Assembly (NCBI GenBank): GCA_029008875.1
Contig: JAQXJP010000035.1
Coordinates: forward strand, 186,001 to 250,000
DNA from: Lachnospiraceae bacterium
GTDB taxonomy: Bacteria > Bacillota > Clostridia > Lachnospirales > Lachnospiraceae
Reading direction: 5' to 3'
Length of the DNA: 64,000 nt
Of this stretch, positions 4,944 to 50,748 are shown one piece after another (position 1 is the first letter of the stretch; each line of letters opens with the position of its first letter). Under the pieces are notes generated by a model that saw only the letters and a program-made list of their open reading frames with translations, made no database searches and had not been told where the DNA came from. A program made the position numbers and the translations under genes.

Positions 4944-6668
4944 TTACTCAAAAATGCGAAGGACATCCGCCTTAAGTTCCTCAAGCTTTGCATCTGCGCT
5001 TTCCAGAGTTGTTCCCTTCACGCCGCAATAGAACTTAATCTTCGGCTCTGTTCCGGAAGGGCGGACACAGCACCATGCATTGTCTGCCAATTCATAATAC
5101 AGCACGTTGGAACTCGGAAGTCCCGTGGCGGTAACCTCCCCGGTCTTCATATCCTTTCTGGTATCCGCCTTGTAATCGCGCACGGCGAGAACCTCGTATC
5201 CTCCAACGGATGCAGGAGTATTCTCACGGGCACGAGCCATGGTCTCCTGAATCTGGGCAGCCCCATCGATTCCCTTGAGTGTGAGGGTTGCGATTCCCTC
5301 GCGGTAATATCCGTACTTTTCATACATATCAATCATGGCATCCCACAGCGTCTTACCCTGTGCCTTGTGATATGCCGCAACCTCGCAGAGCATACAAACT
5401 GCTGCCGGAGCATCCTTATCCCTTGCGTAGGTTCCCGGAAGACAGCCATAGCTCTCCTCCATACCGAACACATAATTGTTGCATCCGGTCTTCTCGAACT
5501 TGAGCATCTGCTCACCGATATATTTGAATCCGGTCAACACTTCAATCAACTCCACATCATACGCCGCCGCAATTGCCTTGGCCATGTCGGTGGACACGAT
5601 GGACTCCACAAGAGCCGGATTCTTCGGCATGGTGCCATTCTTTCTCTTCTCACCCAACATGTAATCCGCAATCAGCATCGCAGACATGTTGCCGGTGAAG
5701 GTGACATACTCCCCACTTTTAGTATCCTTGCAATATACGCCAAGACGATCCGCATCCGGGTCCGTTGCCAGCACGATATCCGCATCCTTTTCCTTGGCCA
5801 GTTTCAGCGCCAGCTCCCAAGCGTCCGGGTTCTCCGGGTTCGGGTAAGGGCAGGTGGGGAAGTTTCCGTCCGCAACCGCCTGCTGGGGCTCGATATATAC
5901 GTTCTCAAAGCCCAGATCCTGCAACACTCTCTGAACCGGGCGAAGCCCCGTTCCATGCAGAGGAGTGTACACAATCTTGATGTCCTTTGCCATCTCCTTG
6001 ATGATCTCCGGATGGATGGAAAGCTTGCGAAGCTCCGCAAAATATCCTTCCTCCACATCCTCACCGATGATATTGTACAATCCCGCGGCGATAGCGGCAT
6101 CCTTATCCATGGTTTTCACCATATCAAAGGAAGTCACCTTCACAACCTCTGCCATGATATTGGTGTCATGGGGCGGTGTCACCTGTGCGCCGTCCTCCCA
6201 ATATACCTTGTATCCGTTGTACTCTCTGGGGTTGTGGCTTGCCGTAATGACGATACCTGCGATGGTTCCCAATGTACGAACCGCATAGGACAGTTCCGGC
6301 ACCGGAGCAAGCTGCGGGAAAACATAGGTCTTGATTCCGTTTGCCGCAAGACACAGAGCAGCGGCATCGGTAAACTCATCATGCATCAGGCGGGAATCGT
6401 GTGCGATTGCAACGCCCCTGTCCTGGGCTCCTTGAGAGATAATATAGTTTGCCAGACCCTGTGTCGCCTGACGAACGGTATATATATTCATACGGTTGGT
6501 TCCTGCACCGATCACTCCGCGCAGACCGGCAGTACCAAATTCCAAAGTACGATAGAAACGGTCTTCAATCTCTGCCTTATCATCCGCGATTGCTGCAAGT
6601 TCAGCCTTCGTCGCCTCATCAAAGTAAGGATCTGTGCACCACTTTTGATACTCACTATAGAAATCCAT
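4944..6668 (-). CDS. Phosphoglucomutase/phosphomannomutase (alpha-D-phosphohexomutase)
   Basis: TASHNPREYNGYK catalytic Ser loop, DPDADRLG metal loop, RPSGTEPKIKFY; likely start MDFYSEYQKW. Confidence 0.95.
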   Translation of the reverse strand: MDFYSEYQKWCTDPYFDEATKAELAAIADDKAEIEDRFYRTLEFGTAGLRGVIGAGTNRMNIYTVRQATQGLANYIISQGAQDRGVAIAHDSRLMHDEFTDAAALCLAANGIKTYVFPQLAPVPELSYAVRTLGTIAGIVITASHNPREYNGYKVYWEDGAQVTPPHDTNIMAEVVKVTSFDMVKTMDKDAAIAAGLYNIIGEDVEEGYFAELRKLSIHPEIIKEMAKDIKIVYTPLHGTGLRPVQRVLQDLGFENVYIEPQQAVADGNFPTCPYPNPENPDAWELALKLAKEKDADIVLATDPDADRLGVYCKDTKSGEYVTFTGNMSAMLIADYMLGEKRKNGTMPKNPALVESIVSTDMAKAIAAAYDVELIEVLTGFKYIGEQMLKFEKTGCNNYVFGMEESYGCLPGTYARDKDAPAAVCMLCEVAAYHKAQGKTLWDAMIDMYEKYGYYREGIATLTLKGIDGAAQIQETMARARENTPASVGGYEVLAVRDYKADTRKDMKTGEVTATGLPSSNVLYYELADNAWCCVRPSGTEPKIKFYCGVKGTTLESADAKLEELKADVLRIFE

Positions 6669-8126: not shown

Positions 8127-8735
8127 TTAAAATGCAAAGGTATCCTTCAGTCCAACCCACAGCTGATCCTTATCACTGAGATTCAGCGGAGTTCCGTCCG
8201 CAAGGGTATATCCTGCAGCGGAGGCATTTCCCGGATACTCTCCCTGAAGGGTGGGCCACTCAATTCCGATCTCCGGATCGTTCCACGCAAGTCCGCCCTC
8301 GTCTCCCTGGTGCCAGAAATCTGTCACCTTGTAGCAGAACTCTGCAATGTCAGAGAGCACCAAAAATCCATGGGCAAACCCCTCCGGAATCAAAAACTGT
8401 TTCTTGTTCTCCTCGGTAAGCTCCACACCATACCATTTTCCGTATGTCTTGGAATCCTTCCGCAAATCCACAGCCACATCAAACACCGATCCCTTCACCG
8501 CCCGAACCAGCTTTGCCTGTGGAAATTCCTTCTGGAAATGCAGCCCGCGAAGCACGCCCTTGGTGGAGCAGGACTGATTATCCTGCACAAACACACGGTC
8601 GATTCCCGCCTCCTGCATATCTCTGGAATTGTAGGTTTCCATAAAATATCCGCGATTATCTCCATGTACCGCAGGCTCGATAATGCAAAGTCCCTCGATT
8701 CCGCCCACGTTTTTCTCTACTTTAATCTGTCCCAT
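8127..8735 (-). CDS. rfbC: dTDP-4-dehydrorhamnose 3,5-epimerase
   Basis: GLCIIEPAVHGDNRGYFMETYNSRDM, SCSTKGVLRGLHFQ, GFAHGFLVLS. Confidence 0.95.
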   Translation of the reverse strand: MGQIKVEKNVGGIEGLCIIEPAVHGDNRGYFMETYNSRDMQEAGIDRVFVQDNQSCSTKGVLRGLHFQKEFPQAKLVRAVKGSVFDVAVDLRKDSKTYGKWYGVELTEENKKQFLIPEGFAHGFLVLSDIAEFCYKVTDFWHQGDEGGLAWNDPEIGIEWPTLQGEYPGNASAAGYTLADGTPLNLSDKDQLWVGLKDTFAF

Positions 8736-33931: not shown

Positions 33932-36900
33932 TCATTTTTTATCTCGCTTTCTAGGCATATATACACAATACATATCCATCGTCTGATCATATTTAAATGA
34001 TGAAATCATCCTTTTTCTCTGTAGTCTAGCCAATATTTCTTTATTGAATTCTGTTGCCTCCACTCTTGCCTGTTTCCCCCCAATTATTTTCAACCAAGCT
34101 TCGCAATCTGTCTCGACCAGCAGTTTCAAGTACTCTTGCATTTTTTCAGGATTCATATATGGCACTTGCCCTATATACACCGCTTTCCGCACATCCTCCG
34201 GAATATTTCGATTACTAAACAAACTTTTTAGGATTTCATCACTTATTTTAAAATCATACGTTGCAATATCTGCCGCGTACAATTTCAAATTGTCCATAAT
34301 TACATCCTCGATATTATATTTCCGACTCCTATCTTTCTTACTGCTATCTTTTTTAGCATTTCCTTTCTGCACACCATAATCCCGAACAAGCAATTTGTAA
34401 TCCTCATCGTCCAAGTGATTTTTAACAATTTCATATCGTAATGAATTACTCCATTTCTTGTCTAATCGAATTGCCCCATCGTAATGAGGCAACAATTTAC
34501 GGATTTCTTTCTCTTTAAGTTCTCCGCTCTCAATAACTTCGCGAATCTCATCTTCAAATTTCCCTGCCTCTGAAGACGCAACAATTTTTTCATACTCCGC
34601 CACATCATGAGCAATAAAGTGGGACACATGATCCGGATAGATGCTCCTTAATCCAGCCAAGCAGTCCCTTGTCATATGGATTGCATCAACATCAATCAGG
34701 ATATCAAGTTTGTCTGAATCAATCCCCTCCGTAGCAAACCCCTTTACATAGCAACGATTTAATCCTGCCGCTAACCATCGGTAGACATCATTGTTCAGTT
34801 GGCTTTGGATAACTAATTCGCCAAAAAATGCCCCCCTAAGATCTCGTAAAGACTCATCTGTCGCATTTACCCCCAAATTAATATCCCCACGAATATTCCC
34901 ATTCAGGAAATCCACAAGCACATCGTCAATTTTCTCACCACAAAATTGAAAATAACACAAGATATTATCAATACTACACGTAACAACACCTGCCTGATAG
35001 AATACACTCCACTTGTCCTGTGCAACGACGCGAATATCCCGGATCTTTCCTACCCATTTGTCCAAGACGGCGGCCCTATAGTTCTCCCCAAGTCTATCGT
35101 AAAATTCCAGTATGATGCTTTCCTCATCCTCCATTACTGTTTGTCCGTCCAAAGCCAATTTAAAAAAATCATCTGGATTTTCTACAATCTTCGCGCTCAA
35201 CACATCCTCAATAGCCATACACTGCGTTAGAAAAGTTCCCTGCTGTAGTTTCGCTCCACGGATTAACCGCAGGAATTCTCCTATCATATACCGGTTCATT
35301 ATAAATAGTCCTGCTTCCAACACCATGATTCTAATCTCATCATTTAGTTCATCGGAAAAATCAACAAATTCTGTTTCCCAAGACTGCAGATTGCGAATTA
35401 TATTATTACGTTCCTGGGCGTCTGCATTCTGTAACCCAATCTGCGCAATACAATTCTTTACTTTATGACTAATTATGTGGTTTACATTGAACCCTCGGTT
35501 GTCTCCCTTTCCGTACTTTGCAATGTCCGATAATAATTGCAACGCCAGCATACTGTCTCGGCACTCCATAATGATATCTGGCCAAATCTTTAGCAAAACT
35601 TCCACCATCGTTGCCATCAAGAGATCATTTCCGCATTTCACAAATGCATTTTTCAAAAAAATATATTCTCCATTATCCCGCACATACTGCAAAATAGCCG
35701 AAGCTTTCTCCACATCCACTTCCAGTGCCTTTCCTAAAAAGCTATAGTTCATGGCAGAAACGCGTCGACATTCCTCGACGGAGTAATTTCGCAGAATCTC
35801 CTCTGGATTATCCAATGACACTTCGCAATCATTCTCTCTTCGGGCATTAAAATTTAGCACAAAATTCTTGTCAACCACAGACTGCGATACCCCATAAAAA
35901 TATGTAATGTAGTCATGATATCCCTCATTGATAATTCCCTCCTTCACTAAAAAGGAAACCAAATCAATCTTGGGATTCTCTATGTAGCTTCTATATTTTG
36001 TCATCTCATCCGAAGTAAAAGCATAGAAAACCTCTTTCTCCCCATAAAGTTCTTCTGCAGAAGCATTCACTGCACTGGCAATTTTCATATCCAGCCCCGT
36101 AATCTTTTCCTGCAGTTCCTGTATATGACGAATTGTTTGAGAATCTGGGCCAATTAATGCGATTCGATGCTGATATTCATCTGATGCTTTTATGTCCTCA
36201 ACAATATCCGCGACATTAATCCTTTCTAACTCCCACCGTTTTCCATAAATACCGCCAGAAACTACTCTTCCAACCTCAACCCGCTCTCCTTTTAATGCCA
36301 TGCTCACCAATTCAACGAAATTTGGAAAAGAATTTGCAGCCTTCCCATCTACAACATAATCATCTGCCGGAAACAATTCCACTAGCAATTGTTCTTCTCT
36401 CTTACAGCGCTCCTGCGCGATTTGACTTTTTAGCTGCTCCAACTCTGTTTCGATTTGACTTTTTTCCTCTTGATACGCCTGCACACGATAATCAACAATT
36501 CGTTCTCTCCCACCAATTACCGTCCATAGAAAGCCCTCTCCATGTTGCAACGCCAAAAAATCCTTCGGGAACAGATTCTTATAACAGATATAACCCAACA
36601 TATTACGTTTCTCCAACCCAATCTCATATTTTTCGGTGAGCTTTGAGGTATATACCAAAAACTCATTGAAAATGTTCTTGACAATGCGCATATCATCCAC
36701 ATACACACTTATTTTTTTAAGAAAGCTTTTGTCCGCCTTCTCTAAAACCAAATTATGTTGTTCAAATATCTCTATAAATTTATCATAGGAGTTGGAACCA
36801 TCAACAATCGGAATTACTGGAATAATCAAATCAAAAAACTTGGTTCTATCTTCCGATTCAAACATATCATCTCGAAGCAAATACAAAAACTTTACCTTAT

Positions 36901-37873
36901 TACTGACTTTCTTCGGTTCGAAACTCCCTTCCTTTCCATCAGCCCTTGCCTTTTCCCATTTCTTTTCATTTTTCCTCTTCTTTCTCTTCAACCACTTATC
37001 CGAATAATATGGATTTCTCCGTTTATTGATAAGATAGTTCATTTCTCTCAATTTTACGAAGATTCCATTGTCGTCAAATCGATCCAAATCATCGAAAACC
37101 ACTCCAAACACATTACTTTTTTGAAAAAGATAAATAATCTCATCTAGGTATTTGTCAAAATTCTTATCACTCTCCATTTGATTCATTGGAATCGAACTAT
37201 CCTTAAAATTGAACTGCGTAATAAACGGATGTAAGAATTGCCGACGAATAATTCGATACACTAAAAAGACTAAAGAAATACCAAAAATAATTCCCATAAG
37301 AATCAACCCTAGATTCCCACACCAAAATTTTAGAAAACTATTGTTCAGGCAAATTGCGAGAAAACCTATTTTTGAATAATTTGTCCAATACAATAATGGC
37401 AACATTATTCCTAACACTGCCGTTGTATAGCTTACAATGCTTCTTGTTGTAACAAGTTCCTTGATCATGAAACGGGTCTGTGGGATATCACACATACGCA
37501 TCTGATGTACCAGTTGATTGATAATACGACCGACTAACTGCTCGCTATCATTGCTATTACCTACACCCTTTTTTAGCCCGCCCCCATTCTGGAATCTTTC
37601 TATTTCTCTACTTGTAATATTATTGTCCATCTCTTTATTTGACGCAAAATGAGTCAATGAAACGTGGATAAATTTCTTATCCCTATGTAACTCTTCATAT
37701 GAACATATAATACTACTTTTACCAGCGCCATATCCACCAGCAAGAGCAATATTGCATACTTCCTCATCATCCATTGCTTCGTCAAGAATGGTTTCGTATA
37801 CTCCAAGATCAATGTTATTTTCTGGATTTAAATGTTCAAATTGACTGTTTTTTACCGCTTTCCTTCCTCTCAT
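33932..37873 (-). CDS. KAP/YobI-like P-loop NTPase with two TM helices, 1313 aa
   Basis: Walker A ALAGGYGAGKSSII; Walker B-like GVVFDDLDRFDD; TM segments between them (TAVLGIMLPLLYW..., LGLILMGIIFGISLVFLVYRII). Confidence 0.8.
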   Translation of the reverse strand: MRGRKAVKNSQFEHLNPENNIDLGVYETILDEAMDDEEVCNIALAGGYGAGKSSIICSYEELHRDKKFIHVSLTHFASNKEMDNNITSREIERFQNGGGLKKGVGNSNDSEQLVGRIINQLVHQMRMCDIPQTRFMIKELVTTRSIVSYTTAVLGIMLPLLYWTNYSKIGFLAICLNNSFLKFWCGNLGLILMGIIFGISLVFLVYRIIRRQFLHPFITQFNFKDSSIPMNQMESDKNFDKYLDEIIYLFQKSNVFGVVFDDLDRFDDNGIFVKLREMNYLINKRRNPYYSDKWLKRKKRKNEKKWEKARADGKEGSFEPKKVSNKVKFLYLLRDDMFESEDRTKFFDLIIPVIPIVDGSNSYDKFIEIFEQHNLVLEKADKSFLKKISVYVDDMRIVKNIFNEFLVYTSKLTEKYEIGLEKRNMLGYICYKNLFPKDFLALQHGEGFLWTVIGGRERIVDYRVQAYQEEKSQIETELEQLKSQIAQERCKREEQLLVELFPADDYVVDGKAANSFPNFVELVSMALKGERVEVGRVVSGGIYGKRWELERINVADIVEDIKASDEYQHRIALIGPDSQTIRHIQELQEKITGLDMKIASAVNASAEELYGEKEVFYAFTSDEMTKYRSYIENPKIDLVSFLVKEGIINEGYHDYITYFYGVSQSVVDKNFVLNFNARRENDCEVSLDNPEEILRNYSVEECRRVSAMNYSFLGKALEVDVEKASAILQYVRDNGEYIFLKNAFVKCGNDLLMATMVEVLLKIWPDIIMECRDSMLALQLLSDIAKYGKGDNRGFNVNHIISHKVKNCIAQIGLQNADAQERNNIIRNLQSWETEFVDFSDELNDEIRIMVLEAGLFIMNRYMIGEFLRLIRGAKLQQGTFLTQCMAIEDVLSAKIVENPDDFFKLALDGQTVMEDEESIILEFYDRLGENYRAAVLDKWVGKIRDIRVVAQDKWSVFYQAGVVTCSIDNILCYFQFCGEKIDDVLVDFLNGNIRGDINLGVNATDESLRDLRGAFFGELVIQSQLNNDVYRWLAAGLNRCYVKGFATEGIDSDKLDILIDVDAIHMTRDCLAGLRSIYPDHVSHFIAHDVAEYEKIVASSEAGKFEDEIREVIESGELKEKEIRKLLPHYDGAIRLDKKWSNSLRYEIVKNHLDDEDYKLLVRDYGVQKGNAKKDSSKKDRSRKYNIEDVIMDNLKLYAADIATYDFKISDEILKSLFSNRNIPEDVRKAVYIGQVPYMNPEKMQEYLKLLVETDCEAWLKIIGGKQARVEATEFNKEILARLQRKRMISSFKYDQTMDMYCVYMPRKRDKK
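37873..37873 (-). other. Start of the NTPase gene, divergent from the RR2 promoter about 140 bp away
   Basis: ORF 33932..37873 (-) and promoter element 2 at 38014 (+). Confidence 0.5.
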
Positions 37874-41165: not shown

Positions 41166-42092
41166 ATGACAACCATAAATAACTACATTACGGAATATAT
41201 TGAATACTGCCAGTACAGAAAACATTTAGATATAAAATCAATAAAAGCGTACTATATTGACTTAAAACAATACAGCAATTTTTCTTCTGAATTACCATTG
41301 TGCCTAACCAAAGAAACATTAGATCTATACATAACTAACCTGCACAAACAATTCGCCCCCAAAACTATTAAGCGAAAGATTTCAAGTCTTAAAGCATTTT
41401 TTCAATACCTAGTCTATCGAGAAATATTACCAGAGAACCCCATAAATAAATTGGATCTTCATTTCCGCGAAGCAAAAATCTTACCAAAGGTTATACCTTT
41501 TCATTCTATTAGTTTGCTTTTATCTACCATGTATTCTCAAAAGAATCAAGCCAAATCGGAATATCAACTCCGCTGTCGTATCCGAGATATTGCTGTAGTT
41601 GAATTATTGTTTGCTACCGGTATGCGAATATCAGAATTATGTTCCCTAAAGCCCTCGGATATTGATATGGAAAGCCACAATATACTCATCTATGGTAAAG
41701 GCTCCAAAGAAAGAATTATACAACTCGAAAATCCAGAAGTCATTTCTGCTATAACCTCATATCGCGAAAAATTTAGAGAAGATATAAAAATTTGTGGCTT
41801 TTTCTTTGTCAATAGGCTTGGGCACAAATTGTCAGATCAGTCCGTCCGCCTCATGATAAGTCATTATTGTAATCTAGCTGGTATTGACCAACACATCACT
41901 CCACATATGTTCCGCCACTCCTTTGCCACACTTTTACTAGAGCAGGATGTTGACATACGATATATACAGCAAATGCTTGGTCACAGTTCCATTAGTACAA
42001 CAGAAATATATACTCATGTATCCAATACTAAACAAAAAGACATTCTTGTTCATAAGCATCCTCGCAACCTAATGTCAATCAATAACGGATAA
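41166..42092 (+). CDS. Tyrosine recombinase/integrase (XerC/D-like)
   Basis: SAM-like N-terminal domain; catalytic set ATGMRISEL (R), GKGSKER (K), HMFRHSFAT (H-x-x-R), LGHSSISTTEIYTHV (H, Y). Confidence 0.95.
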   Translation: MTTINNYITEYIEYCQYRKHLDIKSIKAYYIDLKQYSNFSSELPLCLTKETLDLYITNLHKQFAPKTIKRKISSLKAFFQYLVYREILPENPINKLDLHFREAKILPKVIPFHSISLLLSTMYSQKNQAKSEYQLRCRIRDIAVVELLFATGMRISELCSLKPSDIDMESHNILIYGKGSKERIIQLENPEVISAITSYREKFREDIKICGFFFVNRLGHKLSDQSVRLMISHYCNLAGIDQHITPHMFRHSFATLLLEQDVDIRYIQQMLGHSSISTTEIYTHVSNTKQKDILVHKHPRNLMSINNG

Positions 42093-42108
42093 TATAGGAT
42101 TATCCGTT
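42084..42108. repeat. Palindromic putative recombination site L: AACGGATAAT-ATAGG-ATTATCCGTT
   Basis: 10-bp perfect arms around a 5-bp spacer, overlapping the integrase stop codon; core 19 bp is the exact reverse complement of the core at 44059-44077. Confidence 0.8.
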
Positions 42109-42184
42109 GTAACATTGTAAAATTTGGACGGATGATTGTTATGGTAAGCTGTATTTTACGGATTTATATTGGAGAAGAATACAA

Positions 42185-42838
42185 TTGAAAGACGAAAGAG
42201 TAGTTAATCAAGAGACTATGCCCGATGGTATAATTGTTTTCATTTCAGGCGTGCCAGGTATGGGAAAAACAACAATTTCATATGAATTACTTAAAAAGTA
42301 TAATAAGTTTAGAATAATTGAAGAGACGGATTTGATTAGAGAAATATTACGAGGATATAATGAACATTTAAAAAAAGAATTTGGTAATCAGGTGGATTTT
42401 TTATTTGAAAAAATATATATTACGGATCATACAAAACTCTTAACTTTCGAAGAGGCAAAATTCCAATGCAAAATTATGAAACAATCATTTGAACAGATTA
42501 TTGCACGGCAGCAGCGAAAGGGGATATCAACCATCATTAATGGAGTTCACATAATTCCAGAAGTGCTGAGTGACATTGCAGAAAAAAACAACGTAATTTT
42601 TGTTAATCTTTATGTAACAGATGAGCATGAAATTTATGAAAGAATCTTTAAGAGAGATTCCACTTCATATATGTTGGAGCATATACCCTTTATTTTTCAT
42701 ACTAACACCGAACAGTATTTAAGTACCAAAAGAATTTCATTAGAATTTAGAAACGTCATTAATGTAGATGTGACGAGATTAAGTGTTGAAAATACTATGA
42801 ATCAAATTATTGAACATATAAAAAATATGTCACCCTAA
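42185..42838 (+). CDS. P-loop kinase-like AAA protein (2-phosphoglycerate kinase-like); probable TTG start
   Basis: VFISGVPGMGKTTISYELL (Walker A); GGAGAAG just upstream of the TTG at 42185; alternative ATG at 42218. Confidence 0.7.
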   Translation: MKDERVVNQETMPDGIIVFISGVPGMGKTTISYELLKKYNKFRIIEETDLIREILRGYNEHLKKEFGNQVDFLFEKIYITDHTKLLTFEEAKFQCKIMKQSFEQIIARQQRKGISTIINGVHIIPEVLSDIAEKNNVIFVNLYVTDEHEIYERIFKRDSTSYMLEHIPFIFHTNTEQYLSTKRISLEFRNVINVDVTRLSVENTMNQIIEHIKNMSP

Positions 42839-42852
42839 AAAGAACATTAATT

Positions 42853-42881
42853 CTTGACACACCCATATTAGGTGTGTCAAG
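42853..42881. terminator. Bidirectional hairpin between convergent genes
   Basis: CTTGACACACC-CATATTA-GGTGTGTCAAG, perfect 11-bp arms. Confidence 0.75.
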
Positions 42882-42933
42882 TCAATCAATTTATATAAAA
42901 GTCATTTACTTCCATGCAGAACATTCAAATTTA

Positions 42934-44025
42934 TTAGTCAAACATATATATAGCCTCATTCCATACTGCAAGATATTTTTTTATACATTCTTTGCCTTTT
43001 TCAGAAGAAGCACTAAACACTTCAAATTTGCTATTAGTCATAATATTAGGCATTCCATACATATCAAAGTGTGGTTTGGCATAGATTATACAATTATCGA
43101 CTCTTATGATAATTTCTTCTCGTCTGTTTGAATACATTTTAAAGCATTGCTGCAGCACTTTATTTGAACCTATAATCCTTTTCGCCCGGGAAATAGTTGT
43201 GCGAAGTTCGGATTCAAATATATCCTGGTCTTTATGGGCGTAATGCACTTCTTCAGCTTCAGGATTTAAAAATAGAACTTTAAAATCGATTCCTCCCATA
43301 TTAGGTTGAACCGCTTTTTTATCTAGATATTCAAATAAATCATTAAAATTGCCTCCAAAAAGTTTCATATTTTTTCGTCCATATATCCACAAATATTTTC
43401 CGGTAAATAGAAAGGATTGTATTATTGCCTTCCATAATTCAAAAGTTTCAAATCCAGACAAAAAGTATGCAACTTTATCCCGATAATATGGGCTGTTTAT
43501 CGTAAACTTATCAACTGCAATTAACTTTTCAACAAGATCTTCACATTGAACATCGACTTGGCGATACTTTTCCTTAATTACATGAACTTTTTCCCTGTAT
43601 TCCTTGATACAAGATTCTGTATAAGGTGAATCAGATAAGGAAAAGGCATCAAGGAAGTCTGTTTCAAAACTATCATTAGAAAAATCAATCTCTTTAGCTA
43701 TATTCATTGGATTATCAATCCATGAATGCCATAAAGAATCATGATCAAATAAAAATGGAATAACTCGTTTATGTAATCCGCTTGCATATCCAGCTTCATA
43801 TAGCAACCAAGGAGATTTTTTGTTTTCTGATGTAAAGCAAAGTATTAAGATATCGCATTGTTCAATGTGCCGGATAATCGTATCCTGAACACATTCCCCA
43901 GCATGAATGTCCTCTTCTGACATAAAAAATCTTGTGTTTGGCAACAAAGCTTCTAAAATATGCTTTGTATATTTGGCTAATTCTCCACTTTTAGATTTAG
44001 ACCAACTAATAAATATTTCTTTCAT
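42934..44025 (-). CDS. TIR-domain protein with uncharacterised C-terminal domain
   Basis: KEIFISWSKSKSGELAKYTKHILEALLPNTRFFMSEEDIHAGE...ILILCFTSENKKSPWLLYEAGYASG (TIR with conserved Glu); start 44025 preceded by GGAGGTG. Confidence 0.82.
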   Translation of the reverse strand: MKEIFISWSKSKSGELAKYTKHILEALLPNTRFFMSEEDIHAGECVQDTIIRHIEQCDILILCFTSENKKSPWLLYEAGYASGLHKRVIPFLFDHDSLWHSWIDNPMNIAKEIDFSNDSFETDFLDAFSLSDSPYTESCIKEYREKVHVIKEKYRQVDVQCEDLVEKLIAVDKFTINSPYYRDKVAYFLSGFETFELWKAIIQSFLFTGKYLWIYGRKNMKLFGGNFNDLFEYLDKKAVQPNMGGIDFKVLFLNPEAEEVHYAHKDQDIFESELRTTISRAKRIIGSNKVLQQCFKMYSNRREEIIIRVDNCIIYAKPHFDMYGMPNIMTNSKFEVFSASSEKGKECIKKYLAVWNEAIYMFD

Positions 44026-44056
44026 CTTTACACCTCCATATGCCAATTAGCAAATG

Positions 44057-44079
44057 AAGGATAATCCTATATTATCCTT
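44057..44079. repeat. Palindromic putative recombination site R: AAGGATAAT-CCTAT-ATTATCCTT
   Basis: Same arms as site L with inverted spacer (CCTAT vs ATAGG). Confidence 0.8.
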
Positions 44080-44247
44080 TATTTACACCTACTCATCTAT
44101 TATTTCTTTGAACCAATCACATGCTTTGATCGCAGAAAAAATCTTGCTACTACATCATCCAAAATGTGTGGCACATTTTACCATTTTTCTAAACTTATAC
44201 CCCACATGAAAGAATCCAATCTCTCCCCCCATTAGCACGTCTTTATC

Positions 44248-45249
44248 CTAACGGTCCTGTTCAACTGACTTATTTGTCCATCGATTCCACATGTATGTAT
44301 ATGCCTCATTTCTACATCTGTGCACCAATTCTTCGACCATATCACTATAATGATGCTTCCTAGCCACATACGCGGCAATCATTAACATAATATTATTATA
44401 TGCGGTATATTCTGCGCCCAATTGTCCCAAAGAAAATATCTCCTGTTCAGAAATACTTGCATCCTTTAATGAAATCATTCTTTCATATATTTCCCTAAAA
44501 ATTCTTTCTGACTCCTCCTTACACAAAGAAAGAGAATCCAGATTTTCTATTTCCCTCTCTTGTCCTACTCCAATTTTATTAGCATCATAGTTATACAGAT
44601 GCAGGCTATCACTATAGTGAATATAGGACCCAACTTCTAAACCGAGCCATCCTGCCAATATTTCCTGCAAACTCGTAAACTGAACAAAATTGTATGGCAT
44701 TCCCAACAGTATGTCATTGCTTCGCATAATTTGAGACCACTCCAGTTTCCCATTTCTTATTTTCAACAATGAACAAACATTACATGGCACATCCGTACTT
44801 CTTGGTTGCCCATTCTCCATAGGAAAATCTTTTTCAACATCATAAATCTGTATTACCACTTGTCGACTCTCGGGAGCATTTTGCAAAACATGGTATGCTC
44901 TTTCTAACTGATCAAAGCCAAAATGAGAACGTATTCGTTTTCCATAGGCGCCATAATAGATATCCCCAGCACCTGCAAACTTTGGTAAACTCGGATTCCA
45001 ATAATTAATAACCTCTGATTGCTCTTTACCATTCATTATCCATACCAATTCTGCCAATGCAAAACCAATGCTCATCGGCGGAATACGGTCATACACCCAT
45101 TTTTGTTTTGGATTTTCTACAGAAACAAACGCATGCAACAATTCATATACGTCTCCATTTCGTCCTTTCAATGTAGTCTCTTGCTTCAATAGAATATCAG
45201 TCGCCTTTTTCCATACTTCATTGGCCGTTCTTCCTTCAATTAGCCACAT
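44248..45249 (-). CDS. Thymidylate synthase-superfamily protein (TS or dUMP hydroxymethylase-like)
   Basis: DVPCNVCSLLKIRNGKLEWSQIMRSNDILLGMPYNFVQFTSLQEILAG...DSLHLYNYD: catalytic Cys, RS-D, uracil-contacting Asn and HLY retained by alignment to E. coli ThyA. Confidence 0.82.
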   Translation of the reverse strand: MWLIEGRTANEVWKKATDILLKQETTLKGRNGDVYELLHAFVSVENPKQKWVYDRIPPMSIGFALAELVWIMNGKEQSEVINYWNPSLPKFAGAGDIYYGAYGKRIRSHFGFDQLERAYHVLQNAPESRQVVIQIYDVEKDFPMENGQPRSTDVPCNVCSLLKIRNGKLEWSQIMRSNDILLGMPYNFVQFTSLQEILAGWLGLEVGSYIHYSDSLHLYNYDANKIGVGQEREIENLDSLSLCKEESERIFREIYERMISLKDASISEQEIFSLGQLGAEYTAYNNIMLMIAAYVARKHHYSDMVEELVHRCRNEAYTYMWNRWTNKSVEQDR

Positions 45250-45270
45250 CCTTTTTCCCCTTTCCCGATG

Positions 45271-46245
45271 TCAGGTTTGTAACTTGCTATTCACTCCCCA
45301 TTTAGGCGGATAAAATAAAACTATCTGCTCCAGTCCACGATTCTTATATTGTTGCTTAATTCTTTTCCGTCCATCCACTCCACAAATATCTGGATGTGCC
45401 ACTCGTGCATATTTGTCAGTTTCACAAAATAAGTTTTGGCAATCAATTAGCTGTAATTCCCGACCAAACAATGATTGAAAGCGCAACCCTCGTTTCTCGA
45501 ATTCCTCATTTTGTCTATCTGCCACGCATCTAATAACATCTTCATAACTGTATCCCTTTATATCCCCAAAACATTTTCGTATTCCGTTCTTCGCTCCTGG
45601 CCCAGCAACAACGAACGACATCTCACTGAAATCACACAACTCACTGTAATTAATATCAATTGCAAATTGAAATGCCAAAAAAGTTCCAAGCGTTGGGTAG
45701 CTTAATAAGACCTCATACAATTCTTTCAAACTACGTACTCTTGCAATTTTCTTCGGCAAACCAGAATTCATCATATATTCCAAAAGTTTTAAATTGTTTT
45801 GATGTTTTTTCTCAAAGCCAAAATAACTTTTTCCTGATGGCATAATATATGCAGACGAATATATACTTGCATTACAACACATTCTCTCCATCAACAACTG
45901 ATTATATCTTTCGTAATTATATGAGGAATACGTAACTTCGCCCACCGCATCCCTTATATACTCCCATGTCTCTATTTTGTTAAATAATTTAAAAAAAAGT
46001 ATCCTAAAGCATTGATCCTCTGGTGTAAAGTAATCATTCTCATAAATAACGTTTCGAATCAAATACTGACTTACTCGATCTGATGCTCTATAAGCATTTG
46101 TAAACTTGTATTTCTGAATAATCTTATCATCTGTCCATGGATAAGCTCGCCCATATAATCGATTAAAAAATACCTCTTGACGTTTTGCCGCAAAACTCCA
46201 ATATGTATCATATACAGGTGTAGGCTTCAATTCTTCAAATTTCAT
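45271..46245 (-). CDS. Protein resembling the helical domain of 5-hmdU DNA kinase (HMUDK_hel; base-hypermodification family)
   Basis: PTPVYDTYWSFAAKRQEVFFNRLYGRAYPWTDDKIIQKYKFTNAYRASDRVSQYLIRNVIY resembles this family's N-terminal signature. Confidence 0.7.
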   Translation of the reverse strand: MKFEELKPTPVYDTYWSFAAKRQEVFFNRLYGRAYPWTDDKIIQKYKFTNAYRASDRVSQYLIRNVIYENDYFTPEDQCFRILFFKLFNKIETWEYIRDAVGEVTYSSYNYERYNQLLMERMCCNASIYSSAYIMPSGKSYFGFEKKHQNNLKLLEYMMNSGLPKKIARVRSLKELYEVLLSYPTLGTFLAFQFAIDINYSELCDFSEMSFVVAGPGAKNGIRKCFGDIKGYSYEDVIRCVADRQNEEFEKRGLRFQSLFGRELQLIDCQNLFCETDKYARVAHPDICGVDGRKRIKQQYKNRGLEQIVLFYPPKWGVNSKLQT

Positions 46246-46249
46246 AACT

Positions 46250-46864
46250 TTAATCTGCTCCCACTATGCAATCATATATTTTTGCTACCACCGCCTCTAT
46301 TCTTCCATTATTTTCGATCAAAACACTTTCTGATTCCTTACCTGCCAACTCCCTATAAAGTTCTAAAATTTTTTTATCCTTTTCCTCTTCATAATCCCGT
46401 TGGCGCAATTCACGTTCTATCAAAAAAATCTTTTTAACATCCAAATCTCTCCATTTCATTAACTCCACCTCAAGAATTGCTTGTACAACACTTTCATCCA
46501 TTCCACTTGCTATTCCATATGCATAAGTAGACCACCAGTAACGATCTAACAAAACAAGAGATTGTTTCTGATTCAATTCTCTTAATTTCCGATCAATCAA
46601 ATCAATATGAGCCGAAATATGCAGTAATTGCAAACTAGTTTCATTTAATTTTTCATCAAAATATCTAGCTTGATTATGATGAATATCGTAAACCAGATTG
46701 CCTAATGTTCTAGGCTCATTTCCTGGAAATGTAACGACCACGCAATCACATCCCACAGATTCATATATCTTTTCCTTTAATTTACCAACAATAGTAGTTT
46801 TTCCAACATTATCTATTCCCTCAAACACATATATTCCTGAATGCTTCTCGTTTTGGCGTTCCAT
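46250..46864 (-). CDS. Thymidylate kinase-like P-loop kinase
   Basis: IYVFEGIDNVGKTTIVGKL (TMPK P-loop), LVLLDRYWWSTYAYG (DR motif). Confidence 0.8.
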   Translation of the reverse strand: MERQNEKHSGIYVFEGIDNVGKTTIVGKLKEKIYESVGCDCVVVTFPGNEPRTLGNLVYDIHHNQARYFDEKLNETSLQLLHISAHIDLIDRKLRELNQKQSLVLLDRYWWSTYAYGIASGMDESVVQAILEVELMKWRDLDVKKIFLIERELRQRDYEEEKDKKILELYRELAGKESESVLIENNGRIEAVVAKIYDCIVGAD

Positions 46865-46875
46865 TGTTCTTACCC

Positions 46876-48714
46876 CTATCCTATAATACTCAATAATCGT
46901 TTTATCATCAGACGATGATTCATATTATAAAATAACCCCTCATTTATCGATTTATCCCATGGATTTATACTTGACCAATCTTCACTTTTTAGTTTTTCAA
47001 AAGCATACTCACTAGATCTTCCACCTACAGTACCAACCAACGCCACTGGGATATTTGCCCTTTGGGCCAAGGCAATTTCAATATCTACCCCCTGTTGTAA
47101 TTTATCAGATTTGATTTTTCCTCCCAGACAAATTAACAGCTCACTTGCCTCTCCGCAGATCATTCTTTCCCTCATTTTCGAAATATTATCTGATAATATA
47201 AGTGTACATTTCTCCTCCAAGTCATCAATATTATACTGATACAAGTACTCTCTAGACATATGCATTTCAATAGAATACTTCATATCAGAAGCGTATAAAC
47301 TTCCAATATCAAATATAAGTCTTTGAAATGTAGGATGAGCACCGAAAACAAGTGTGTAGCCATTCTTGATAATTTCTCTAGAATACACAACTAAAGCTTC
47401 CAGCAAAGACGCTTGGTAAATCTCATCACAATCTGGAAACGCCCCTGACAAAATAATCCGCTTATTACGTCTTTTTCTTTTTTCACCTGAAACATTTTCC
47501 AAGTTCATCAAATAATCATCATAATTTTCTTCTATTATTTTTGATTCTAAAATATGTTTATCACGACATCCATGATTAGATAGCAAAAATAGCCGATCAT
47601 GTGTGTCATAGCTTTTCTCATTTTTTACTCTAGCAATAAACTTCTGTATATCATCTTCTTTCGGATTTCGTCCAAAACACTGTATATAATGTTTTCGTAT
47701 ACCAGAATCATATAAATCTCTCGTTTTTTCATGATATTCAATTTCATATGCTAATACGGAACTATTATCATTTGCCAGTTTTATTTTTCCCGCGCAACTC
47801 ATTTCGGCCAGATATTCAATATATGAGTATACCTGATTAGATGAATTCATAATAAGTTCAAAACACTTATCCTCGACTTCATCCACAATTTCCTCAAGTC
47901 TATCTTTATCCTCAAATTCTTCACTTCTATAGCAGAGAACCGGTGCTTGACCAGGGCGTATTTCCATCTTGTCATATGACGCGTTATCAATTTGAATCCA
48001 TAAAACCGGAATATCATTTACAAGTGCATAACATAATTCTTTCATAATATATGTAGAATATTGTGCCTGTTCAGTCTGCAAAAAAATTACTACATCACTT
48101 ACTGCCAGATGCTTATCGATATCCGCTTGTGCATCATCACCCACATTGACATTAACAACATCCCTGTATACATTTCGTTCTCTGGTTAACAAGCGCAGTC
48201 CATCGGCCAATTTTGCTGCCACATGCTCTCCATCTATTCTTCTATGACTGATAAAATAGAGAACCTCATCTCGATAGAGGGGAGATAATGTTTGTGCTAC
48301 AATTTTTCGTGCAAATATTTGTGCGATTGCCTTTATATTATTCCTCAACGGATTTCTATTTTCTTTCCGACTGCAAACATCAAAACTTTGCCTATCTGTA
48401 ACCGGTTCTGGTGGTCTTCTACATTCAGGAGTCCCTTCTACTGCAATAGCCCATATTCTACTTTGCGCATCATTATATTTTCCTATTAAGTTACGTATTT
48501 CATCTGAATATTCCCCTTTTTCAGATGTAAAAAACACAAGTATATCATTTTTATCTACCTCTTGTGCCAATAATTGCTTTATTTGAAATGACGTTGAAAT
48601 ATACTGCACATTAGCAACATATGAGTTTAATATTTCATAACATTCCCTGTAGAATTCTGTAGCATCTTTCAACTCTGTCATTGTAAGTTCTGGATTACAG
48701 AAAATAACATTCAT
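46876..48714 (-). CDS. TIR-SLOG (STALD-like) multidomain protein
   Basis: TIR: VLYFISHRRIDGEHVAAKLADGL...YIMKELCYALVNDIPVLWIQID. C-term SLOG-like: RIILSGAFPDCDEIYQASLLEALVVYSREIIKNGYTLVFGAHPTFQRL...LLICLGGKIKSDKLQQGVDIEIALAQRANIPVALVGTVGGRSSEYAF. Confidence 0.75.
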   Translation of the reverse strand: MNVIFCNPELTMTELKDATEFYRECYEILNSYVANVQYISTSFQIKQLLAQEVDKNDILVFFTSEKGEYSDEIRNLIGKYNDAQSRIWAIAVEGTPECRRPPEPVTDRQSFDVCSRKENRNPLRNNIKAIAQIFARKIVAQTLSPLYRDEVLYFISHRRIDGEHVAAKLADGLRLLTRERNVYRDVVNVNVGDDAQADIDKHLAVSDVVIFLQTEQAQYSTYIMKELCYALVNDIPVLWIQIDNASYDKMEIRPGQAPVLCYRSEEFEDKDRLEEIVDEVEDKCFELIMNSSNQVYSYIEYLAEMSCAGKIKLANDNSSVLAYEIEYHEKTRDLYDSGIRKHYIQCFGRNPKEDDIQKFIARVKNEKSYDTHDRLFLLSNHGCRDKHILESKIIEENYDDYLMNLENVSGEKRKRRNKRIILSGAFPDCDEIYQASLLEALVVYSREIIKNGYTLVFGAHPTFQRLIFDIGSLYASDMKYSIEMHMSREYLYQYNIDDLEEKCTLILSDNISKMRERMICGEASELLICLGGKIKSDKLQQGVDIEIALAQRANIPVALVGTVGGRSSEYAFEKLKSEDWSSINPWDKSINEGLFYNMNHRLMIKRLLSIIG

Positions 48715-48716
48715 AA

Positions 48717-49331
48717 TTATTCCCCCTTATAATGTGCAAATTGTCCTGTTTTTCTACTGTAAGGAGTCCCCTGAACTCCCTTTTTATAATTATCTTGCAT
48801 GTAACTTATAAAATTGTTTATAACATCAGTATCTCTACTTACTCTATGACCAATACCATGTGCTATTAGACTGTCAAATTTCTTTGGAATAGAAATTGCA
48901 TTATTGCCAAAATAAAAAAATTCTGTTGCAACCAACACTCTATCGGTTCCCGTATCTCGATTCAGATTAATATAGTTCGTACTTCCATCTGCCATACTAT
49001 GATGCGATAATTCCTGCACCCAGTTCATTCCGTCGTGATGATATATATTATCCCCATACATATGTATCACACCTTTACTAAAGACCGGACGCTTACTTAT
49101 AAATCTACTATCATCCCAGTATTGATCAAATGTAAGTGTTTCCTCTACCCGCATTAAAACCACCAATTTCTCATGTACTATTGTCCCCGCGGCCCCAAAT
49201 GCTGCGACCCAATCCCCAACTTGCGCACACCTTCTAATGACAGGTTTACAGGTCGCCAATGTGCAATATCTAAAATACGGATTCGGTGCAAATCCATAAT
49301 CTCTCGGTATAACATATGAATACAATTTCAT
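48717..49331 (-). CDS. Nmad2-like (nucleotide modification-associated domain 2) protein
   Basis: MKLYSYVIPRDYGFAPNPYFRYCTLATCKPVIRRCAQVGDWVAAFG...EETLTFDQYWDDSRF resembles the Nmad2 signature. Confidence 0.7.
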   Translation of the reverse strand: MKLYSYVIPRDYGFAPNPYFRYCTLATCKPVIRRCAQVGDWVAAFGAAGTIVHEKLVVLMRVEETLTFDQYWDDSRFISKRPVFSKGVIHMYGDNIYHHDGMNWVQELSHHSMADGSTNYINLNRDTGTDRVLVATEFFYFGNNAISIPKKFDSLIAHGIGHRVSRDTDVINNFISYMQDNYKKGVQGTPYSRKTGQFAHYKGE

Positions 49332-49344
49332 AGTTTTTATACTC

Positions 49345-49827
49345 CTAACATGTATAATGATTCATGCCCATAGGATTACTTTCCCTAGGAGTCCCATCAG
49401 GTTTTTCCCAATCCATATCCTCCCCATCAATAGCTCGAACAATCTTATCCCCATTCCATCCAACCAGTGCATGTCCATATACGTTCAGTTCCGCTGGAAC
49501 ATCCTCTTCTTTAGCTCCCTGTAAGTAAACCCCAACAACTCTTTTTCCCATTTCACCAGCTGTTTTAATTTCCCAGTTTACATAATCACTTTTTGCTGTA
49601 TCTTTTCCGATAAGCACAACAACAGTTCCCGCCCATACCATTTGGGGCTTAATTAGTTCATGCTTAATATACTGCTCATTTGTCGCATTATTTTTCAATT
49701 TACTCTCGTATATAGAACTGTCCCTCATACTTATTCCATGTTTACCAATAAGACTTTTAAATGCTTCAATTTTATCTGCATCGTTATGCTGATGAGATAC
49801 AAAAATATTTTTAATTTCGTCTGCCAT
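49345..49827 (-). CDS. ThsB-type TIR (MTH538/DUF1863-like) protein
   Basis: NIFVSHQHNDADKIEAFKSLIGKHGISMRDSSIYESKLKNNATNEQYIKHELIKPQMVWAGTVVVLIGKDTAKSDYVNWEIKTA. Confidence 0.8.
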   Translation of the reverse strand: MADEIKNIFVSHQHNDADKIEAFKSLIGKHGISMRDSSIYESKLKNNATNEQYIKHELIKPQMVWAGTVVVLIGKDTAKSDYVNWEIKTAGEMGKRVVGVYLQGAKEEDVPAELNVYGHALVGWNGDKIVRAIDGEDMDWEKPDGTPRESNPMGMNHYTC

Positions 49828-49894
49828 AAGTGCCCCCAATTTATACAAAAACTTTATTCTGTCAAACAGCTTCGTTTATCCGTTCCATATGACT

Positions 49895-50748
49895 TTATAT
49901 TTCCTTCCCATGTAAAATTTCATTTTCTACATTTGTTAGCAACTTAATGCCCGCTAATTGTAAATTGTCAATTTCCCCATGTTCATATAAGTCAATAAAA
50001 TACTTTTCCCTAAGTCCTGATTTGTCATACAAAATTCCTAATTCCCATGAACACCAAGGTCTTATATAGTAATTCCCGCCAATTTTCAACTCACTATTAG
50101 GAGTTCGTAGAAACACCAAATTTTCGGATTCATTTAATGCTTTATGTAACTTTTTCTTTAATAAAATACCCTCCTCTTCTTTTCCATTATTCATCCAATC
50201 TACGAATAGATAAATATTGTATTTTTGAAAGAAAAAAACAGCGCTATTGTATACAATTTGTCTTCATATGCATATGAGAGAAACACTTGCTTCTTTTTTA
50301 TATAATTTGCTTCTAAATATTTTTTGTATGCATTTCTTTTATATTCATTAAGATTCCAATCGTCATCTTCAAAAATTGATTTATTCTGTTTGACTATGTC
50401 TTCTATTATTCCGTCATTAAAATCACTTAATGCTTTTATCAATGCATTAAATCGATTAGGCAGTTTTTTCTTTCTGTTTTCTATTGAAATCAATTCGCTT
50501 AATAGTTTTCCATAATTTGGAATATTCCTTGCTTCTTCTAAATTATATCCTTCGTCAACTATCATCTGAAGGGCATTAAAAAACGCTGCTTCTCGATCTT
50601 CCAATACATTTTCCCGCAAAAAAAGTGGCTCGATATTTCTTAGTATTCTTTCATTTAGAGCAAAGAGAACTTTTATTTCCATGATTAATCTAACATTATC
50701 ACTTTGTAACAAACTCGCATATACATTTGCTCTGCCCAGTATTTCCAT
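49895..50748 (-). pseudogene. TIR-like gene split by a frameshift at a 7-nt homopolymer (ORFs 50200..50748 and 49895..50194)
   Basis: QVFLSYAYEDKLYTIALFF | -1 | FQKYNIYLFVDWMNNGKEEEGILLKKKLHKALNESENLVFLRTP...RPWCSWELGILYDKS; junction at A7 (plus strand) 50232-50238. Confidence 0.78.

Follow-up and report, generated by a model that had tools for sequence, protein, structure and literature searches.

We analysed a 64,000-nt stretch of DNA from a gut bacterium of the Lachnospiraceae (contig JAQXJP010000035.1, positions 186,001 to 250,000), here called the window. In it, a tyrosine recombinase gene is followed by a segment of 2 kb that is predicted to be invertible and that carries two convergent genes, one for a P-loop kinase and one for a TIR-domain protein. 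The locus is made up as follows (L numbers denote related loci).

41166..42092, + strand: XerC/D-like tyrosine recombinase of 308 amino acids, predicted DNA invertase (PF00589, 1.1e-42, plus a SAM-like N-terminal domain)
42087..44077, no strand: predicted invertible segment (opposite orientation in L035; same architecture in 46 other loci)
42087..42105, + strand: proximal crossover site, GGATAAT-ATAGG-ATTATCC, overlapping the integrase stop codon (L035 has the same site at the same place)
42185..42838, + strand: P-loop kinase gene, cassette A, starting at TTG 42185 or ATG 42218 (PF13207 AAA_17, 3.3e-7)
42853..42881, no strand: perfect 13-bp hairpin between the convergent genes, possible terminator (fold -17.3 kcal/mol)
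42934..44025, - strand: TIR-domain protein gene, cassette B, 363 amino acids from ATG 44025 (PF13676 TIR_2, 5.5e-10)
44059..44077, - strand: distal crossover site, GGATAAT-CCTAT-ATTATCC, inverted copy of the proximal site
44248..50194, - strand: operon for ThsB-like TIR, Nmad2, TIR-SLOG, dTMP kinase-like, HMUDK and thymidylate synthase-like proteins (domain search), reading into the distal site

Sites, recombinase and cargo in the window

Each crossover site consists of seven-base arms around a five-base centre, which reads ATAGG at the proximal site and its inverse, CCTAT, at the distal site. The preliminary description of this locus had proposed two 19-bp cores that are exact reverse complements with an asymmetric 5-bp centre, and this is what we find at 42087-42105 and 44059-44077. 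It had also placed the crossover 2-6 nt after the integrase stop; with the stop at 42090-42092 and the centre at 42094-42098, that position is correct. The cores belong to a longer inverted repeat of 25 nt that has a single mismatch (42081-42105 / 44059-44083) and is the best long inverted repeat in 6 kb. Even with up to three mismatches allowed, only two copies of the site occur in the 64 kb, and none of 100 shuffled sequences contained two. The exact 19-mer has no further copy elsewhere in the genome. One other exact match to GGATAATN5ATTATCC is present (C18), with a different centre and no partner. The site pair is real and not a product of chance. Written as ATAA-N7-TTAT, the format of the site is dif-like, with a centre of 7 nt.

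The recombinase is closest to XerD (1e-71) and XerC (3.5e-70) among curated models, both under the equivalog cut-offs; its scores of 241.7 against a cut-off of 329.6 and 236.7 against 335.15 place it outside the housekeeping Xer proteins. It likewise falls outside the integron integrases (115.2 against a cut-off of 265), and the models for tyrosine-type DNA invertases match it distantly only (5e-19, far under cut-off). A search of viral contigs found no relative of it. An inversion switch calls for a linked recombinase with intact catalytic residues, and here the R, K, HxxR, H and Y residues are all kept in a full-length protein, as judged by alignment to XerD (1a0p).

The kinase matches the NCBIfam model for 2-phosphoglycerate kinase at 3.7e-18, under the cut-off, and had no match in a search for defence genes. 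The TIR protein matches TIR-TM in PADLOC (4.3e-15) and the NCBIfam model for Thoeris type III ThcB4 at 1.4e-5, with a score of 24.1 against a cut-off of 220. A domain search found no SIR2 in the segment, and its cargo does not qualify as Thoeris. A search of solved structures gave no match to either protein. The domain models support the identity of the TIR protein, and neither it nor the kinase is a proven defence gene.

The most likely start of the TIR gene is ATG 44025, which has GGAGGTG directly upstream and corresponds to the first residue of the L035 homologue; an alternative upstream start, TTG 44046, would give 370 amino acids. The favoured start lies about 41-45 nt from the crossover, in line with the 45 bp estimated beforehand. 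The hairpin at 42853-42881 had been described as perfect and as an insulator between the two cassettes. Its stem is indeed perfect, and it scored terminator-like on the - strand, which makes it a possible terminator.

Inversion in related genomes

Strong evidence for inversion comes from two near-identical loci, L117 and L190. Their flanks are collinear (97.9% identical over 4.5 kb on the left and 97.0% over 2.4 kb on the right), whereas the middle, 95.4% identical over 4.68 kb, is inverted, and both breakpoints fall inside the 24-nt sites. This inversion is unlikely to be an assembly error because L190 is located in a single-contig genome.

For the window itself, the comparison is with L035, on a Clostridia contig (CAJTEN010000044.1) from a different species. 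This locus keeps both sites with the same centre, and beyond the site it shares with the window the thymidylate synthase-like, HMUDK, dTMP kinase-like and TIR-SLOG genes. In L035, it is the TIR gene that comes after the integrase, and the kinase gene stands at the end of the thymidylate synthase operon, so that positions and strands are swapped compared with the window. This is the layout that had been predicted for the window after inversion. The flanks are well conserved (integrase 74%, thymidylate synthase-like protein 66%, HMUDK 74% identical) compared with the cargo (TIR 33%, kinase 37%), which indicates that the cargo is evolving faster than the flanks. L035 is weaker evidence for inversion than L117/L190. 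An inversion switch should be found in both orientations with breakpoints in its sites: we see this at the family level in L117/L190 and for the window type in L035.

Among loci in Clostridia whose recombinases are about 43-100% identical to that of the window, we counted 47, the window included, in which a site close to the recombinase is mirrored by an inverted one at a distance of 0.28-7.3 kb. In each, the two 7-nt centres are identical, so that these loci have the two inverted sites with matching asymmetric centres expected of an inversion switch. The full-strength partner is inverted in every one of them. The first 35 loci use 28 different 5-nt centres, and when the centre of one locus was tested on other loci it matched just 6.6% inverted and 6.0% direct. 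Thus, the match between centres is a constraint within each locus, as strand exchange by a tyrosine recombinase requires. Homologous segments, compared in pairs, are either entirely collinear or entirely inverted and never mixed. These genome comparisons show that inversion has occurred in nature in this family and that the block flips as a unit. The preliminary reading of the locus as invertible therefore holds, given L035, L117/L190 and the shared architecture of the 47 homologous loci; the comparison of related genomes that had been proposed as its check came out in its favour.

Contig ends are also informative. About 25 homologue contigs stop 7-216 nt past the integrase, in most cases at the site or close to it, and several Ruminococcus-type contigs start just before the recombinase, as expected if mixed orientations had been assembled. 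In isolate 0.1xD8-71 the segment forms a separate contig that ends in a 47-nt repeat on either side, and both flanking contigs terminate in this repeat as well. This layout is consistent with a mixture of orientations and also with a short k-mer.

A few loci depart from the common plan. L259 has three sites that share a centre, of which two are direct and the third is inverted; it holds the sole full-strength direct copy and is possibly shufflon-like or deletion-prone. In L114 (reverse strand, 8243-8523), inverted sites lie 0.28 kb apart with no gene inside, which might reflect lost cargo or an invertible leader. In L037, the incomplete end of a second recombinase, accompanied by a site, follows the first at a distance of 2 kb (6161-6344) and is either a neighbouring or a decayed module. 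The idea that each site side corresponds to one clade was dropped; on the tree, side clusters only partly.

Cargo pairs and transcription

The outermost genes are convergent in 41 of the 46 segments long enough to judge. From site to start codon the median distance is 38 nt (52 of 82 within 60 nt), which leaves little room for a promoter inside the segment. Outside the segment, 18 loci have a perfect TATAAT and a -35-like box 4-24 nt from one site, pointing inwards, and no locus has them at both sites; shuffled flanks gave an expectation of 1.7 of 93. As the promoter stands outside one site only, the promoter in these 18 loci is fixed and the genes flip. It is probable that such an outside promoter stays in place and transcribes the gene turned towards it.

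Opposed genes are conserved as pairs. These include TIR with kinase, ThsA with TIR, a carbamoyltransferase opposite a 1,000-amino-acid protein, a 1,100-amino-acid Mrr-AAA protein opposite a glycosyltransferase, and ATP-grasp/radical-SAM opposite pentapeptide proteins. STAND-like NTPases stand opposite two-gene units, and D-Ala-ligase-like ATP-grasp proteins opposite AAA/NACHT-like proteins. Judged by these assignments, some of the cargo is immune-type and some is surface- or metabolite-type, and a defence role is not claimed for every locus. The genome of Ruminococcus bromii 5AMG (L070, L071, L058, L059) contains several modules whose recombinases are almost identical and whose cargo pairs differ.

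Convergent Thoeris-type SIR2/TIR pairs lie between inverted sites in L048/L115 (Roseburia faecis M72), L051, L066, L175, L233 and L238. In L115 (Roseburia faecis), ThsA is matched at 1.2e-179 and the TIR protein matches ThsB at 1.7e-13, so this locus has the ThsA and ThsB-type TIR of a Thoeris system. Relative to the recombinase, the Thoeris-type pair occurs in both orientations across species; L115 and L233 are 73.6% identical and inverted. The parts of Thoeris normally act together and are encoded as an operon. By contrast, in L051, L066, L115 and L175 the genes for a SIR2-STALD ThsA and a TIR protein face each other inside the invertible segment. A further Thoeris-type SIR2/TIR inverton, L168 (5027-7281, G071 C10), has no related recombinase within the 12 kb covered; the genome's related recombinase is on another contig, which suggests action in trans.

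In the window, the operon at 44248-50194 is the likely outside source of transcription for the segment. No terminator-like site was found on the - strand between 44248 and the distal site, and in L035 the end of the thymidylate synthase-like gene extends into the distal site. Thus, the last gene of the operon appears to be what is exchanged: TIR now, and kinase after inversion. With this layout, the swapped gene can be transcribed from the operon side and not from the integrase side alone. The operon is a rare nucleotide-modification and TIR locus, present by HMUDK in 3 of 396 family genomes. Of the two found besides the window, one (L199) is site-less and cut at a contig end, and no further orientation pair of the window type was found among the 396 genomes searched for the operon.

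The proposed switch and its place among known systems

Based on these observations, we propose that the window very probably contains a two-state DNA inversion switch, in which a 2-kb segment is flipped by its own recombinase and TIR is swapped for kinase. The first part of our model concerns the inversion itself. The XerC/D-like recombinase (41166-42092) would recombine the two dif-like sites and so invert 42087-44077. We infer that this enzyme is the catalyst, and that switching in the window strain is active and reversible. The second part concerns expression. The convergent kinase and TIR genes start just inside the sites, which leaves little or no space for separate promoters, and transcription would enter from outside; in many relatives, its source would be one fixed promoter by one site. 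In the window it would come distally from the TIR/SLOG/thymidylate synthase operon, with a possible weak contribution from the integrase side. At present, TIR would be the last gene of the operon; after inversion the kinase would take that place, as in L035. Only the gene facing the main promoter would be well expressed, so that expression would be mutually exclusive and give phase-variable immune or stress states.

Several points weigh against this proposal. No clear promoter lies within 130 nt of either window site, and the case for exclusive expression is weaker here than in the relatives. L035 comes from another species, with only 33-37% identity in the cargo, so that an independent insertion in the opposite orientation is conceivable there. 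A linked recombinase is present in both L117 and L190, and its part in their inversion is presumed. That both orientations would occur in one culture of the window strain is deduced from relatives, and the contig breaks could be explained in part by repeats longer than the assembler k-mer. Finally, the Thoeris cargo, whose parts act together, fits either/or expression badly. Either basal expression of the silent part is sufficient, or the parts are brought together by the switching.

The latter idea leads to a different view, namely that the switches divide immune systems of two parts, each part being produced in a different cell state. In the case of Thoeris, the signal maker and the effector would meet only during or after inversion, and a flip, or a recombinase induced by infection, would arm the defence. 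In the window, a flip would change the output (TIR or kinase) wired to the TIR/SLOG/thymidylate synthase operon. We think this view unlikely.

It is also possible that the segment inverted formerly and is now locked in the window strain, with an inactive site pair or recombinase. The mismatch in the 25-nt repeat would fit such a loss, as would the homologues that have no recognisable site nearby. However, the 19-bp core has no mismatch, the recombinase is full length and none of its catalytic residues is missing, and we consider a locked state quite improbable. The segment might instead be a mobile cassette that integrates at the recombinase site, in an integron-like or site-specific manner, with opposite orientations arising from independent insertions. 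IntI4 is a distant relative of the recombinase, and in the Ruminococcus bromii group (L051, L054, L070, L071) near-identical recombinases accompany unrelated cargo pairs, so cargo has been exchanged over evolution. Yet insertion of a one-site cassette leaves direct repeats, and the full-strength partners are inverted in 47 of 47 loci; L117 and L190 carry the same cargo and flanks, flipped; and gene pairs remain together. We therefore rejected this model as very unlikely. Lastly, although the near-perfect palindrome that makes up each site around its 5-nt centre could fold into a hairpin, we rejected as hardly credible the view that the sites are terminators or regulator-binding palindromes around a convergent pair and the orientation differences ordinary rearrangements, because such elements need no locus-specific asymmetric centre mirrored at the partner (28 centres in 35 loci), the breakpoints fall in the sites and the sites adjoin recombinase genes.

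The proposed inversion switch resembles known systems in several respects. Most known cases of phase variation by inversion concern surface structures and restriction specificity. The G segment of phage Mu (Gin) and the C segment of P1 (Cin) are alternate-gene inversion switches, and they are similar to the loci described here in having a fixed outside promoter, oppositely oriented genes in an invertible segment and an adjoining recombinase gene. They differ in that they use small serine recombinases and swap tail-fibre ends, whereas here a XerC/D-like tyrosine recombinase would swap whole, unrelated immune- or surface-type genes. The Xer-like invertases of mycoplasmas (Xer1, HvsR) and tyrosine invertases of the FimB/FimE type flip surface-lipoprotein genes or a promoter; inversion by a tyrosine recombinase and the Xer-type protein family are common to both, and cargo and host group differ. 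The dif site reads ATAA-N6-TTAT. XerC/XerD-dif provides the closest curated protein models and a similar site (ATAA-centre-TTAT), but the proteins here are below the equivalog cut-offs, the centre, which differs from locus to locus, has 7 nt instead of 6, and two sites surround cargo.

P1 C and the E. coli P segment are cited as alternate-gene switches in PMC12529663. Gut invertons and the C. difficile CwpV switch are cases of phase variation by inversion, including in Clostridia with linked tyrosine recombinases (PMC11892184, PMC2784873); unlike the whole-gene cargo here, they mostly involve invertible promoters and surface genes. The main text of the 2025 survey of gut invertons names neither defence nor Thoeris (PMC11892184). 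Our literature search, made mostly outside subscription papers, found no description of this recombinase-site-cargo family nor of Thoeris split across a switch, and a search on Thoeris type III names gave unrelated papers only. Alternate-gene inversion is thus a known kind of switch; the family and the switch-split Thoeris were not found described.

One recombinase family, with a common site design, accompanies many conserved opposed pairs across Lachnospiraceae and Ruminococcus-type Clostridia, and its cargo includes TIR, SIR2, STAND-like NTPases, ATP-grasp, glycosyltransferase and other proteins. If our proposal is true, bacteria would switch or bet-hedge immune genes by DNA inversion. The switch-split Thoeris makes it testable whether an immune system can be controlled by keeping its halves apart. 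The family also suggests a function for recombinases in defence islands, which are often dismissed as mobile-element remains; PMC12529663 states this gap, describing the roles of recombinases near defence genes as unknown.

To the left of the switch, the window encodes a YobI-like large P-loop NTPase (33932-37873, 2.6e-98), possibly another defence-type gene.
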